Assembly: GCA_022821145.1 (NCBI GenBank)
Contig: JAJEEE010000081.1
Span: 62,001 to 126,000 of the forward strand
Direction of reading: 5' to 3'
Source: Acidobacteriota bacterium
Lineage (GTDB): Bacteria > Acidobacteriota > Terriglobia > 20CM-2-55-15
Length of the DNA stretch: 64,000 nt
Made by a program: the position numbers and the translations under genes. The notes beneath the pieces were generated by a model. The model saw nothing but the letters and a program-made list of their open reading frames with translations. It was not told the origin of the DNA and made no database searches. Shown here piece by piece: positions 1,844 through 6,681 of the stretch; position 1 is the first letter of the stretch, and every line of letters starts with the position of its first letter.

Positions 1844-1873
1844 ATGAACCAACGTCGGAAGAACCCCAGGTGA
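1844..1873 (+). CDS. Possible 9-codon leader peptide, coupled to the next gene
   Basis: An ATG at 1844 follows a good purine-rich ribosome site (AGGAGCGGAAAG, about 1828-1838). It opens a 9-residue frame, MNQRRKNPR, ending in TGA at 1871-1873. That stop overlaps the GTG at 1870-1872, which is the best start for the large island protein (GTGA overlap). The large gene's own GTG has only a weak site, so the leader could deliver ribosomes to it by termination-reinitiation. Such a short frame may also be chance. Confidence 0.35.
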   Translation: MNQRRKNPR

Positions 1874-3405
1874 GTGAAGCACAGGGATACTCTGCACTGG
1901 GCGGATATACCTGGCTTGACATCGACCGACCTGCGGACTATGAAGAGCTAGTCAACATACTGGGTGGCGAATATGAACCCACAAAGATAGCGGTCGAATT
2001 ACAGAACAATATTTCCAGTGAGGTTAGCGCTATTCTCGTCGAGCACGACTACATCGACAAGGATTACAGGAGTACGTTTTACAACTTCTATGCCAAGATG
2101 GGGCGGCCGTATCGTCAGGACTGTGTCAGGTTACACTTCTTCGACAAGGATGTGAGCTTTACCGAATCGCCTTTGGATCTAAAGGGCCCCGATTTATGGC
2201 TTGAACAGCATTACTTTGGATACATCGTCCTGAGACCGACGATCGCAGCTACGCTGGGTCGTTCCCTTCTGTCGCCGCGAATCAGGATTGGCGCACGAGG
2301 CAATGCGATCCAATCCCGCCACAAGGTCCACCTACTCGGATACACGCTGTCGGTTTGGGGATTCCCATCGATGGCGCAGCATGCGGACATCGCAGTGTGT
2401 GCGCATGTGTCGTGCTGGGCGATTCTCCGGCACTACAGCGAACAATATGTGCAGCATCGTGAGCTGCTCGTGCATGACATCACGCGGCTTGCGACGCCGC
2501 TCGATCCGGGCGGACTGACGCCGTCCCTAGGCCTGAACCTGTATGAGGCGGAACGCATCTTCCAGGCGGCGGGCTGCTACCCACTGATGATCGTTAGGGA
2601 ATGGGACGAGGACTCCGAAGAATGGGTTGATGATGACAACTTTTTTGCGCAGATGTTGAGTTACCTTGATTCGGGTTTTCCGTTGTTCGTGTCGTTGCGG
2701 AGCGAGGCAATGAACAATGAAGGACATGCGATAGTCCTAGCGGGCTATTCGTGGCGCCACGGATCGCCCGGATCAAGAGAGGGTTGCTCTCATGTGTGGT
2801 CGTTGGTGGATGGTCTTCTCGCTGTCGACGACAATATGCTGCCCTACAGTTCTGTGAGTATCGGAAATCACACGAATTCGACGGTAGATATAGAGAACTA
2901 CTCGGCGAGAGACTTCGATGCGTTTATCGTTCCGTTACCCGACAAGATTTTCTATCCCGCGCAAGCAGTAGAGTCGTTTTCCCTCCGTACCATGTATCCA
3001 ATTTACAAGGAGGTGCTAGACTTGCCGGAAGAAGACAAATTGCTGCGACGATACTTCGTGACAACTGTGTCAGCGCTCAGGCGTTTCGCGCGAAATAACT
3101 TATCGCAATTCGGTACTGAGTTGGCAAATCTGTATATGCACTTGAAGACCACACAGTTCGTCTGGTTGGTCGAGTATGCTTCCGAGGAACAGTGGAGCGA
3201 TGGACACATTGCGGCACGAGTCGTGCTGGATGCCAGTGCGAGCCGCAAAGACGTACAACCCATGTGGCTGTGCCACAATCACGAGTTCGCATTCATCTTC
3301 GATCGCTCTTCGGAAGTACCGACAGGGCGCGAAATTGGGCTCGGACGGCCTGCAAATACGCCGTTGAGCCGTATGGAGACGAATCTGCGACCGGTGAGAC
3401 CGTGA
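1870..3405 (+). CDS. Papain-fold-like cysteine peptidase candidate of the Ubl island
   Basis: This 511-residue protein (GTG start at 1870) has no name I can give. The frame stays open upstream to 1729, but that part lies against the preceding gene and has no ribosome site. Residues 165-325 carry a papain or C39-like order: Gln170, then VCAHVSCWAI with Cys177 and Cys182, GHAIVLAGY with His286, and AVDDN with Asp320/321 and Asn322. The SCWA string resembles the papain nucleophile site. No signal peptide or membrane segment is seen. Residues 1-160 and 330-511 match nothing known to me. Base composition is clearly lower in GC than the flanking core genes. Next to a Ubl operon it could be a deconjugating peptidase or an effector; this is inferred from motif order and context only. 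Confidence 0.6.
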   Translation: MSEAQGYSALGGYTWLDIDRPADYEELVNILGGEYEPTKIAVELQNNISSEVSAILVEHDYIDKDYRSTFYNFYAKMGRPYRQDCVRLHFFDKDVSFTESPLDLKGPDLWLEQHYFGYIVLRPTIAATLGRSLLSPRIRIGARGNAIQSRHKVHLLGYTLSVWGFPSMAQHADIAVCAHVSCWAILRHYSEQYVQHRELLVHDITRLATPLDPGGLTPSLGLNLYEAERIFQAAGCYPLMIVREWDEDSEEWVDDDNFFAQMLSYLDSGFPLFVSLRSEAMNNEGHAIVLAGYSWRHGSPGSREGCSHVWSLVDGLLAVDDNMLPYSSVSIGNHTNSTVDIENYSARDFDAFIVPLPDKIFYPAQAVESFSLRTMYPIYKEVLDLPEEDKLLRRYFVTTVSALRRFARNNLSQFGTELANLYMHLKTTQFVWLVEYASEEQWSDGHIAARVVLDASASRKDVQPMWLCHNHEFAFIFDRSSEVPTGREIGLGRPANTPLSRMETNLRPVRP

Positions 3406-3457: not shown

Positions 3458-3679
3458 ATGAACAGGAGGCTGATTGACTATCTCGACAAAAAGGGCGCGA
3501 AAGCGCTCAACGAAGATCTTCTGAGAGCGTACGCAACAGCGATGAAGGAGCGGACGATCCCCGACACTGAGAGGCAGGTCAGGAAGAACGACGAGCGTGC
3601 CGCAGTGTTGCGGCTTTCGCCAAGCTCATCCTCAAGGCGTCAACGAGCCGTTAGGCGAGAGAAAAGGAGACAGGGGTGA
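3458..3679 (+). CDS. Small basic protein of unknown function
   Basis: The 73-residue frame starts at the ATG at 3458, with AAGGAG at 3446-3451 in front, so translation is likely. Residues 1-35 look like an amphipathic helix pair (RRLIDYLDKKGAKALNEDLL). The C-terminal 25 residues are a Ser run followed by a strongly basic tail (SSSSRRQRAVRREKRRQG), which suggests nucleic-acid binding or disorder. It follows the papain-like gene by 52 bases on the same strand, probably co-transcribed. No cysteines, no transmembrane segment, no family recognised. It could be an accessory subunit, an antitoxin-like partner or a decayed gene end. Confidence 0.55.
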   Translation: MNRRLIDYLDKKGAKALNEDLLRAYATAMKERTIPDTERQVRKNDERAAVLRLSPSSSSRRQRAVRREKRRQG

Positions 3680-3724: not shown

Positions 3725-4093
3725 CTAGTGGGGGTCACCCTGACGTTTGAAACGATCATAGGCTGCCCTGATGATGGTCTCCAACGCATCGGCACCTCCA
3801 CGATCGAGGTTGGGATCCTCGCGGAGCAGCTTGGACACCATCGCGATCGGCTCTCTGGCTCGCTTCGGCGCAGATATGAAGTCGACGGGATTGAGCCCTG
3901 ACCAAGCCGAAAGGGCTGTGAGGCTAGCGGCGTCGGGCTGGCGACCGTTGGACATCCGGGACAGCGTTGTTTGTGAGACGCCCGTCTGCTCGCTAACCGC
4001 TTTCCAAGTCGTGTCCCGCACCTTCACTGTTGCACTGAGAGCAGCATAGAACGACGGGAAATCGAACCTTGTGCGTCGATTCACGGCGGTCAC
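3725..4093 (-). CDS. XRE-family helix-turn-helix regulator of the Ubl operon
   Basis: The 122-residue protein has an XRE/Cro-type DNA-binding domain at about residues 28-66: TWKAVSEQTGVSQTTLSRMSNGRQPDAASLTALSAWSGL has the two-helix pattern and the conserved NG turn. The remainder is a short helical tail, with no peptidase or sensor domain. The apparent start is GTG at 4093; the GTG a few codons in is an alternative. It is divergent from the ubiquitin-like operon and convergent with the small basic gene. Two similar dyads surround the operon's promoter, so a repressor role on that promoter is the simplest reading (inference). Confidence 0.8.
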   Translation of the reverse strand: MTAVNRRTRFDFPSFYAALSATVKVRDTTWKAVSEQTGVSQTTLSRMSNGRQPDAASLTALSAWSGLNPVDFISAPKRAREPIAMVSKLLREDPNLDRGGADALETIIRAAYDRFKRQGDPH

Positions 4094-4503: not shown

Positions 4504-4569
4504 ATTGTTGCGAAAAAATAGCAATTGACATGCTGATGCGCAACCCCTATATTGTTGCCTATTAGCAAT
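4504..4569. promoter_or_regulatory. Two similar operator-like dyads around the Ubl promoter
   Basis: Site 1 (4504-4525) reads ATTGTTGC, 7 bases, TAGCAAT; site 2 (4551-4569) reads ATTGTTGC, 4 bases, TAGCAAT. Each is an imperfect dyad. Site 1 ends on the first base of the -35 box and site 2 begins inside the -10 box. A possible half-site (GCGCAAC) lies between them at 4538-4544. The repeated arms and their position suggest binding sites of the divergent XRE protein, which would block RNA polymerase. Confidence 0.65.
4525..4553 (+). promoter_or_regulatory. Near-consensus sigma-70 promoter of the Ubl operon
   Basis: TTGACA at 4525-4530 is followed after exactly 17 bases by TATATT at 4548-4553. 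The start codon of the Ubl gene is 40 bases further on, with AAGGAG at 4579-4584. A perfect -35 box with an optimal spacer predicts a strong promoter that would need repression, in line with the flanking dyads. Confidence 0.8.
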
Positions 4570-4592: not shown

Positions 4593-4913
4593 ATGACGAT
4601 GAACAACTCGGGAATCGAGCCGGGCCAAAAGAGCCCGCGAGCCGAAGACGTGAAGGCCGCAGAAGATCGTGGCGCAGAGTTCAAGAAAGTCACGATCGAG
4701 ATCAACGGCCACAAGGTCGAGATGCTGGAAGGACCGGCGTCAGGCCTGGAGATCAAGGAAGAAGCAATCAAGCAGGGTGTCGGCATCACGGCGAAGTTCG
4801 TTCTGCAGCAGGAGATGCCGAACGGCACCGGAAAGGTGATCGGCGACGATGACAAGGTCCTCATTCGCGAGCACCTGAGCTTCACGGCGATCGAGCCCGA
4901 CGACAACAGCTAA
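4593..4913 (+). CDS. Ubiquitin-like (beta-grasp) protein, single domain
   Basis: The 106-residue protein has a disordered, charged N-terminus (1-29) and one beta-grasp-like domain (about 31-101): VTIEINGHKVEML as the first hairpin, GLEIKEEAIKQG as the helix, and KVLIREHLSFTAIE as the last strands. This resembles one unit of the bacterial multi-ubiquitin family, and the following E2-like and JAB-E1 genes support the call. It has no cysteine. It ends EPDDNS with no Gly-Gly, so it is not a ready substrate for canonical activation at a diglycine tail. AAGGAG at 4579-4584 selects the ATG at 4593. Its TAA overlaps the next ATG (TAATG). Assignment is by pattern and context; a structure prediction would test it. 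Confidence 0.72.
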   Translation: MTMNNSGIEPGQKSPRAEDVKAAEDRGAEFKKVTIEINGHKVEMLEGPASGLEIKEEAIKQGVGITAKFVLQQEMPNGTGKVIGDDDKVLIREHLSFTAIEPDDNS

Positions 4914-5314
4914 TGAAGGGTACCGGCACGAGGACAGCGGTCAGTGAGGCCATCGAGGAGTTGAAGCGGGCCTTTCCCGGATCGGAGGTCACGGTCATCG
5001 AGGATGGACAGGGAGGGGCTCACGTGGTGGTCGAGACCGTGCACGTTGGTGATCGCTACGAGCCGGCGTATACGTGGCTGGCGGGCCACATTACCGCTCA
5101 GTATCCCTACGCGGACATCTATCCGGTGTTCATGGACGCGGCCGTGCAGCGTCGGGATGGAAAGGCGTTCGAGGCGCCAATCACGAAGGGGCATGACTTT
5201 CGCGGGCGTCCGGCAATCCAGATCTCCCGACGGAACAACCGGATACGGAATTCAGGGCAGTCCGCCGTCGCAAAGTTCCTGAAGATCATCGACTTCCTGG
5301 AAAAGGTCGAATGA
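4913..5314 (+). CDS. E2/UBC-like protein without any cysteine
   Basis: The 133-residue protein has the order expected for a minimal E2 fold: an N-terminal helix (SEAIEELKRAF, 11-21), four strands (about 25-75) ending in a YP-containing turn (QYPYADIYPVFM, 63-74), a loop with GRPAIQISRR (98-107), and a C-terminal helix (118-131). Canonical E2 enzymes carry the catalytic Cys after the YP-strand segment; here the whole protein has none, and Ser105 or Arg-rich residues occupy that region. There is no ribosome site of its own; TAATG coupling to the Ubl gene is likely, and its stop overlaps the next start (ATGA). It may be a non-catalytic adaptor, use an oxygen nucleophile, or be a different small protein. 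The family call rests largely on operon context. Confidence 0.58.
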   Translation: MKGTGTRTAVSEAIEELKRAFPGSEVTVIEDGQGGAHVVVETVHVGDRYEPAYTWLAGHITAQYPYADIYPVFMDAAVQRRDGKAFEAPITKGHDFRGRPAIQISRRNNRIRNSGQSAVAKFLKIIDFLEKVE

Positions 5315-6681
5315 CGAGCCAACAGACGTGCGAGATTATCATCACGCACGAGGATCACAACCGGGTGATGACGCATCTATTTCCGGGTGATCATGACGAA
5401 TACGGTGCGGTTCTCCGTGCGGGGATCGTGTCCTGCGACACCAGACTTCGTCTCTTGGTCAATGCCGTGGAGCGGGCGCGGGTTGGCACGGACTACATCC
5501 CGGGAAAATACGGCTACCGCGCGTTGGATCCCTCGTTCATCCACCGGCAAATCGTGCGATGCCGCAACGAACGAATGGCCTATCTGGCTGTGCACAACCA
5601 TAGTTCCGACACTTCCGTTCGCTTTAGCAGGGTTGACCTTGACTCGCACAAGAGGGGATATCCGGCGTTGCTCGACATCGGCAAAGGCATACCGGTCGGC
5701 GCACTGGTCTTCGGGCGTCGCGCGGTGGCGGCGGACGTCTGGATGCCGGATGGCACGCGACGGGTGCTCGGGTCGTACCGGGTGGTCGGTCAGACGATCA
5801 GGAGGCTGTATGCCAATCCGCAGCGAGCTGCCATGGCGGGCACCCGTTTCGACAGGCAGGTACGCATGCTCGGTCATGCGGGGCAGGCCGTGCTGGGCGC
5901 GAGTAAGGTGGCGGTCGTGGGGCTGGGTGGAGTCGGATCCCTGGTCGCTGAATATCTCGCACGTCTCGGCGTCGGTCACCTCGTGCTAGTTGATCCGGAT
6001 GAGATTGAGGACACCAACCTGTCCCGCGTCGTCGGCGCTACGCTGCTGGATGTCGAGACCAAACAGTTCAAGACGCAAATCGCCGTCCGGCATCTGGGAG
6101 AGGCCAGACCAGATATTCGGCTGGAAGCAATTCGGGGCGATGTTGCGAGTGAGTCGGTCGCTATGAAACTGAGGGACTGCGATTTCATCTTCCTAGCCGC
6201 GGACTCGATGAGGAGCCGGCTGGTGGTGAACGCGCTGACTCACCAATACCTGATTCCTACCGTGCAGATGGGTGCGAAGATTAGACCGGGAGTGAGCGGC
6301 TCGATCGAGGATGCTATGTGCGCCGTACGGAAGTTGAGGCCGGGAACGGGATGCCTCTGGTGCAACGGATTAATCGACGGAACGCAACTGGCAATCGAGG
6401 CGAAGACAGATGAGGAACGAAAGGCCCAGGACTACGGGGTTCGGGAACCGAACCCCAGTGTGATCACGCTGAATGCCGTGGCTGCAGGTCACGCGGCGAA
6501 CGACTTTCTGTTCGACTTTCTGGACCTGCGGCCCACGAGCGGCGACGCGGTGTATCAGCACCATCACTTTTTGCGGAGCACCTCACAGAACGTGGTTCCA
6601 CGCAAGGATCCGAACTGCCGGGAGTGCGGGAAGAGGCTGGGAATGGGCGACGCGATGGGTTTGCCGACAGTAATGGGATGA
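5311..6681 (+). CDS. JAB metalloprotease-E1 (ThiF-like) fusion of the Ubl system
   Basis: The 456-residue fusion has two enzymes. Residues 1-165 are a JAB/JAMM peptidase: Glu30 and the zinc site His95, His97, Ser106, Asp109 (HNH, 8 residues, SRVD; most JAMM motifs have 7). Residues 175-456 are an E1/ThiF adenylating domain: GLGGVGS at 204-210, VDPDEIEDTNLSR (227-239), Asp298, and zinc pairs CLWC (348-351) and CREC (436-439). No Cys lies between 351 and 436, where ThiF and E1 enzymes have the thioester-forming residue; other cysteines are 7, 42, 84, 290 and 337. JAB domains trim or remove Ubls, and E1 domains adenylate their C-terminus, so one chain could mature, activate and recycle the Ubl. 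It is the last gene of the operon. Confidence 0.9.
   Translation: MTSQQTCEIIITHEDHNRVMTHLFPGDHDEYGAVLRAGIVSCDTRLRLLVNAVERARVGTDYIPGKYGYRALDPSFIHRQIVRCRNERMAYLAVHNHSSDTSVRFSRVDLDSHKRGYPALLDIGKGIPVGALVFGRRAVAADVWMPDGTRRVLGSYRVVGQTIRRLYANPQRAAMAGTRFDRQVRMLGHAGQAVLGASKVAVVGLGGVGSLVAEYLARLGVGHLVLVDPDEIEDTNLSRVVGATLLDVETKQFKTQIAVRHLGEARPDIRLEAIRGDVASESVAMKLRDCDFIFLAADSMRSRLVVNALTHQYLIPTVQMGAKIRPGVSGSIEDAMCAVRKLRPGTGCLWCNGLIDGTQLAIEAKTDEERKAQDYGVREPNPSVITLNAVAAGHAANDFLFDFLDLRPTSGDAVYQHHHFLRSTSQNVVPRKDPNCRECGKRLGMGDAMGLPTVMG

Follow-up and report, generated by a model that had tools for sequence, protein, structure and literature searches.

The C-terminal glycine of ubiquitin-family modifiers is generally assumed to be necessary for their activation by E1 enzymes. 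The window analyzed here (64,000 nucleotides of contig JAJEEE010000081.1 from an Acidobacteriota bacterium) carries genes for a ubiquitin-like protein (Ubl), an E2-like protein and a fusion of a JAB peptidase with an E1 domain, and this Ubl ends in serine, which raises the question of what such an operon can do with its modifier. A branch whose modifiers invariably lack a terminal glycine, but whose E1, E2 fold and JAB domain are otherwise intact, would show how far the chemistry can drift. On balance, we consider it probable that the locus is a horizontally acquired, glycine-less conjugation cassette of the Bub type, serine-based and under repressor control. Its features, in positions of the window, are as follows.

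1870 to 3405, plus strand: putative cysteine peptidase of about 511 aa, papain/C39-like, with a GTG start assigned from relatives (sub-threshold Pfam match, invariant C-H-D, Foldseek)
3458 to 3679, plus strand: conserved protein of about 73 aa, encoded directly 3' of the peptidase gene (tblastn; same place in loci L021, L022 and L023)
3725 to 4093, minus strand: divergent HTH regulator of the Xre/Cro type, 122 aa (HTH_3, E=2e-4)
4504 to 4569, plus strand: promoter TTGACA (4525-4530), 17-base spacer, TATATT (4548-4553), with two predicted operators (read from the sequence)
4593 to 4913, plus strand: BubA-like Ubl of 106 aa with one beta-grasp domain and the C-terminus DDNS-COOH (Pfam, profile, alignment)
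4913 to 5314, plus strand: E2/UBC-fold protein (BubB-like), 133 aa, no cysteine, S105 in an SRR motif (Pfam, profile, model)
5311 to 6681, plus strand: JAB-E1 fusion (BubCD-like), 456 aa, JAMM peptidase at residues ~1-150 and ThiF/E1 domain at ~178-440 with a CxxC...CxxC zinc site (Pfam, PDB alignment)

The last three genes are all present as open reading frames and overlap through TAATG and ATGA, as the preliminary description had proposed, and their identification as Ubl, E2-like protein and JAB-E1 fusion is borne out by Pfam, profile and PDB matches. The Ubl scores slightly below the cut-off of Pfam Multi_ubiq (E=1.9e-4; 22.0 bits against 24.5), and its family profile matches solved multi-ubiquitin proteins (9cd2, E=8.6e-9). 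The E2-like protein just exceeds the cut-off of Prok-E2_E (25.4 bits against 25); its family profile retrieves Citrobacter BubB with E=5e-5, or 1.6e-21 using the wider family. Thus the beta-grasp fold of the first product and the E2 fold of the second, on which the earlier proposal was to be judged, are both supported by profile matches. The JAB-E1 protein matches Pfam ThiF (E=4.8e-36), and its residues 8-403 align with Citrobacter BubCD, itself a JAB-E1 fusion (E=1.2e-25). The extent of three genes was too small: the cassette has six, and the three to the left of the promoter had been missed, as had the absence of a C-terminal glycine and of catalytic-type cysteines. The near relatives L021, L022 and L023 have all six genes in unchanged order, and all six are under purifying selection (dN/dS about 0.1-0.25 where measurable).

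The class to which the operon belongs was correctly traced to the comparative genomics of Iyer, Burroughs and Aravind, where the same arrangement is operon type 6e: a (poly)Ubl, an E2/RWD-like domain without cysteine, a JAB-E1 fusion and a metal-binding protein (Iyer et al. 2006; PMC1779556, Table 1). The distribution of type 6e is sporadic (proteobacteria, cyanobacteria and actinobacteria), and Alteromonas macleodii has a solo Ubl (PMC1779556). Gene order and domains are those of the window operon, and its E2-like protein, too, is described as lacking cysteine. However, type 6e lists a Zn-finger protein Y (equated here with DUF6527; usual, not stated as universal), which is absent from the window operon, and its description names no papain-like peptidase, whereas one is linked in the window. 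Such operons were named Bub by Corbett and colleagues (n=544; PMC13373217). Citrobacter BubA, BubB and BubCD (PDB 9ea4, 9ea8, 9eae, 9eav; Gong et al. 2025; Ye et al. 2026) likewise comprise a Ubl, a cysteine-less E2 fold and a JAB-E1 fusion, with the same JAMM residues and the same invariant E2 serine. In contrast to Bub, the window Ubl ends in DDNS without a tail instead of glycine, DUF6527 is missing, and the peptidase, the small protein and the HTH regulator stand in place of CapK and CapS. Citrobacter-type BubA has three Ubl domains and is fused to BubB in a gene of plasmid L024, whereas the window Ubl is a single domain. Of the Bub/6e traits, the window therefore has the N-terminal JAB on the E1, the Multi_ubiq-type Ubl upstream and the cysteine-less E2/RWD protein, and it has neither DUF6527 nor glycine at the activated Ubl C-terminus.

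The nearest relatives are thus of the Bub/6e type, and not CBASS Cap2/Cap3 or Bil, which the preliminary description had also named. Bil (BilABCD) also has Ubl, E1, E2 and JAB in one operon, as four individual genes; its BilA has two domains and is opened at a glycine (PMC11354881). We rejected a Bil assignment, as in the window JAB and E1 form one chain and the Ubl has one domain and no terminal glycine. CBASS Cap2/Cap3 have the E1 fold and a JAB-type peptidase in common with the window proteins, the E1 similarity being only distant. Cap2 is an E2-E1 fusion that works on a cGAS-like enzyme; here the E2 is separate and cysteine-less, and no CD-NTase was found among the cassette proteins, so this assignment was rejected as well. 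A sulfur carrier of the ThiS/MoaD kind was also rejected, as the Ubl does not end in Gly-Gly and the cassette lies in no thiamine or molybdopterin context.

What sets the window operon apart is the end of its modifier. DDNS is found in place of glycine, and we have therefore filed these loci as a separate branch and not as ordinary Bub. It comprises 15 loci: nine plasmid loci, three genome contigs (JAB-E1 71-84% identical to that of the window), the genomes G257 and G349, and the window; the hosts are alpha- and gammaproteobacteria, actinobacteria, cyanobacteria and Deinococcus. Scans of viral contigs with the JAB-E1 sequence found no relatives. In 14 of the 15 loci DDNS is the exact end of the Ubl (HEDS in L019), against a mean column identity of about 29% elsewhere in the alignment. 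It aligns where other Bub Ubls carry glycine, at or near their end (TTTEG, ANFG, ATFG, INPG, NNG) and often trailed by a short tail or a fused E2, and where the solved Citrobacter BubA chain stops (NNG229). The exception is L032, a divergent plasmid locus with DUF6791 replacing JAB, whose Ubl ends in TDKS; the comparison of Ubl ends covers the loci other than L048. DUF6527 was found neither in the window nor in the other 14 DDNS loci, and each of the 15 further Bub loci examined has it (nine by profile, six by annotation). In the E1 tree of 23 proteins, the two sets fall on opposite sides of one branch (support 87/81; recovered in 90% of bootstrap trees); tree support for the DDNS branch is moderate. 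Since nothing follows the terminal serine, the JAB domain is probably a deconjugase; the earlier assumption that it matures the Ubl is unlikely for a protein with no tail to remove. A lone Ubl domain is found in most members of the branch, and operons of this type as a rule carry the JAB-E1 fusion, hence the compact layout, previously offered as a variant, is not the novelty. The class is already known, and the branch is a variant of it in which the end of the modifier is unusual and the linked peptidase had been overlooked.

The catalytic residues of the E1 and E2 proteins are unusual in the same direction. The E2-like protein contains no cysteine, and Tyr64 and Ser105 are the sole residues invariant among 15 E2-like proteins of all subtypes. 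Ser105 lies in a motif SRR (SRH or SWH elsewhere) and aligns with the serine of BubB SRH; the natural reading is that it occupies the place of the E2 cysteine. A serine-linked intermediate has reportedly been described for Bub, and no novelty is claimed for the E2 serine. The structure model (low confidence, pLDDT 55) has BubB as its top PDB match, followed by eukaryotic E2s. In the JAB-E1 protein, the JAMM residues E30, H95, H97, S106 and D109 and the E1 residues G204, G209, N236, R239, K254, D291 and D298 are kept in 22-23 of 23 relatives; D109 corresponds to D104 of BubCD, which is replaced by alanine in the D104A structures of that protein. The only cysteines common to the subtypes are the CxxC pairs C348/C351 and C436/C439, which form the zinc-site pattern known for MoeB/ThiF. 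Of the 23 proteins, 16 have C290 and 12 have C84, so neither is a general catalytic residue, and no conserved cysteine of catalytic type was found in these E1 proteins. The usual thioester cascade is therefore not supported.

The cassette lies in a region of low GC content (0.53-0.62 over about 1.7-6.9 kb against a background of about 0.69), which recovers in a catalase-peroxidase gene, and is absent from the 60 relatives compared. Orthologs of the HTH regulator are 79-89% identical in L021-L023 and 41% identical in L012. The peptidase gene has orthologs (58-82% identity) beside the same operon in L021, L022 and L023. Its product matches Peptidase_C39_2 below threshold (E=0.0024), and a Pseudomonas aeruginosa relative scores 24.7 bits, above the cut-off of 24. 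Candidate catalytic residues are C176, H285 and D319/D320 (numbered from window base 1873), and Cys, His and Asp are invariant in five relatives. The top Foldseek match of a weak model (pLDDT about 60) is staphopain, with a probability of 0.99 but E=0.016; given the quality of the models (pLDDT 61 for the peptidase, 55 for the E2-like protein), the fold matches serve as support only. In L021 (7490-8251) and L022 (6826-7581), the JAB-E1 gene is followed by a gene for a protein of about 252 aa, 87% identical between the two, with no Pfam match; it was not found in the window.

The association of the peptidase with Bub genes is repeated in several arrangements. Among 396 genomes of the phylum, two have the peptidase, and in each of them it lies next to Bub genes. 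Apart from L021-L023, it is present at three further, divergent Bub loci: the Mesorhizobium plasmid L012 (22% identity), where it is found on the opposite side and strand; G257 (L034), where it lies upstream; and the P. aeruginosa plasmid L032, where it adjoins a Bub locus of another type. Without Bub, it is found near phage structural genes (L028), a caspase-family gene (L031), a TrlF-type ATPase (L033) and an AAA-ATPase-like gene (G484). Thus the peptidase is a recurrent but not an obligatory partner. These neighborhoods, and its linkage to Bub in several arrangements, even at a locus of another subtype, would fit a toxin or abortive-infection module with the peptidase as its effector, turned on or off by the Ubl system. 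However, it lies near only six of the 15 DDNS loci, and none was seen near the other nine (roughly 9-13 kb examined); the peptidase therefore cannot be essential to conjugation, and we regard the toxin module as quite improbable.

Two other explanations dispense with protein conjugation. A module whose Ubl only binds its partners would agree with the lack of glycine, of catalytic-type cysteines in E1 and E2 and of the DUF6527 found in other Bub operons, and an exact terminal motif can equally be a binding motif. Such a module is not expected to keep the E1 ATP site and all JAMM residues under purifying selection, as observed here. Moreover, the canonical Bub E1 and E2 proteins likewise have no catalytic-type cysteines, yet the title of the study by Ye et al. 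(2026, NSMB) presents Bub as protein conjugation; we therefore judge a purely binding function unlikely. Adenylation of the Ubl C-terminus might also serve small-molecule chemistry, leading to a thiocarboxylate (ThiS/MoaD-like) or a nucleotide-peptide (MccB-like), and the E1 domain does match ThiF, MoeB and MccB structures. MccB acts on a non-glycine (Asn) C-terminus, and so the fold is not restricted to glycine. But the cassette has no sulfur-transfer or exporter genes, and the JAB and E2-fold partners are kept in all branch loci, which makes this the least probable of the explanations considered, with a very small chance of being right. The glycine-less conjugation cassette has a difficulty of its own: the E1 fold normally acts on glycine, and a C-terminal serine would be more difficult for it to activate.

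Regulation of the operon can be approached from its upstream region. Two imperfect palindromes ATTGTTGC...AGCAAT (4504-4525 and 4551-4569) overlap the promoter of the Ubl gene; the -35 and -10 boxes and both AGCAAT half-sites are aligned and kept in L021, L022 and L023. Given the divergent HTH gene next to these sites, the HTH protein may repress the operon and regulate its own expression. Other branch members have an HTH gene with ImmA/IrrE in place of the lone HTH, resembling the CapH+CapP pairs described for Bub (PMC13373217). According to the 2016 Synechocystis paper (PMC4963859), 70% of PF14452 genes are beside COG2856/DUF955 genes.

In the preferred scheme of a glycine-less conjugation cassette, the operon would have been acquired horizontally as part of a distinct Bub branch and would be repressed by the HTH protein through the palindromes over the promoter. 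Once repression is relieved, the JAB-E1 protein would adenylate the Ubl at its ready-made C-terminal serine, and the Ubl would be handed, with no cysteine thioesters involved, to Ser105 of the E2-like protein as an oxyester and then passed to target proteins. The JAB domain would take it off again, with no precursor trimming, and the papain-like peptidase may have an accessory function in the island, as a further deconjugase, as a processor or as an effector. The comparisons establish which genes are present and linked, the families to which they belong, the residues that are conserved and the structure of the branch. Adenylation at serine, conjugation, repression and the role of the peptidase are inferred, the oxyester step from residue conservation, and the same holds for any role in stress or defense, for which the context is circumstantial. 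The Bub authors state that phage protection has been shown for no Bub operon (PMC13373217). The more specific claim, that a DDNS-COOH modifier is activated at serine by a Cys-less E1 and transferred via a serine E2 in a DUF6527-less branch, some lineages of which recruited a papain-like peptidase, is tentative and rather less probable than the general scheme. A possible meeting of papain-fold deubiquitinases and Ubl systems was raised by Iyer et al. (PMC1779556), and the repeated linkage of a papain-like peptidase with bacterial Ubl operons bears on when the two first met.

Some of the loci compared have features of their own. The 11.7-kb IMG/VR contig L028 (1438-3116) encodes the peptidase and a similar small protein, with no Ubl genes, just upstream of apparent phage portal/head genes. 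In G484 (L058:3557-7484), a peptidase relative with no Bub genes beside it adjoins the AAA-ATPase-like gene, with resolvase-like and transposase-like ORFs nearby. The locus on plasmid p4782_002 (L032:2689-8016) contains a Multi_ubiq protein ending in TDKS, a DUF6791-E1 fusion, DUF6527 and a C39-like peptidase relative of 726 aa. Two members of the DDNS branch are decaying: the E1 gene of Deinococcus sp. D7000 is broken by transposase genes (L016:5001-7689), and in Nostoc cf. commune SO-36 (L051:3800-4981) Ubl, E2 and the N-terminal portion of JAB-E1 are either missing or broken. The DDNS-type operon of Rhizobium ruizarguesonis has upstream of it a gene of the NTase-conflict kind (Pol beta superfamily; L013:848-2410), with a gene for an N-6 DNA methylase nearby. 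Finally, plasmids of Bradyrhizobium, Mesorhizobium, Deinococcus and Rhizobium (L052, L053, L054 and L055) carry a further Bub subtype, with a phosphotransferase-family gene between JAB-E1 and DUF6527; the Ubl ends in NFG or TFG, in some cases followed by a short tail, and the motif of the E2 is FSWH.
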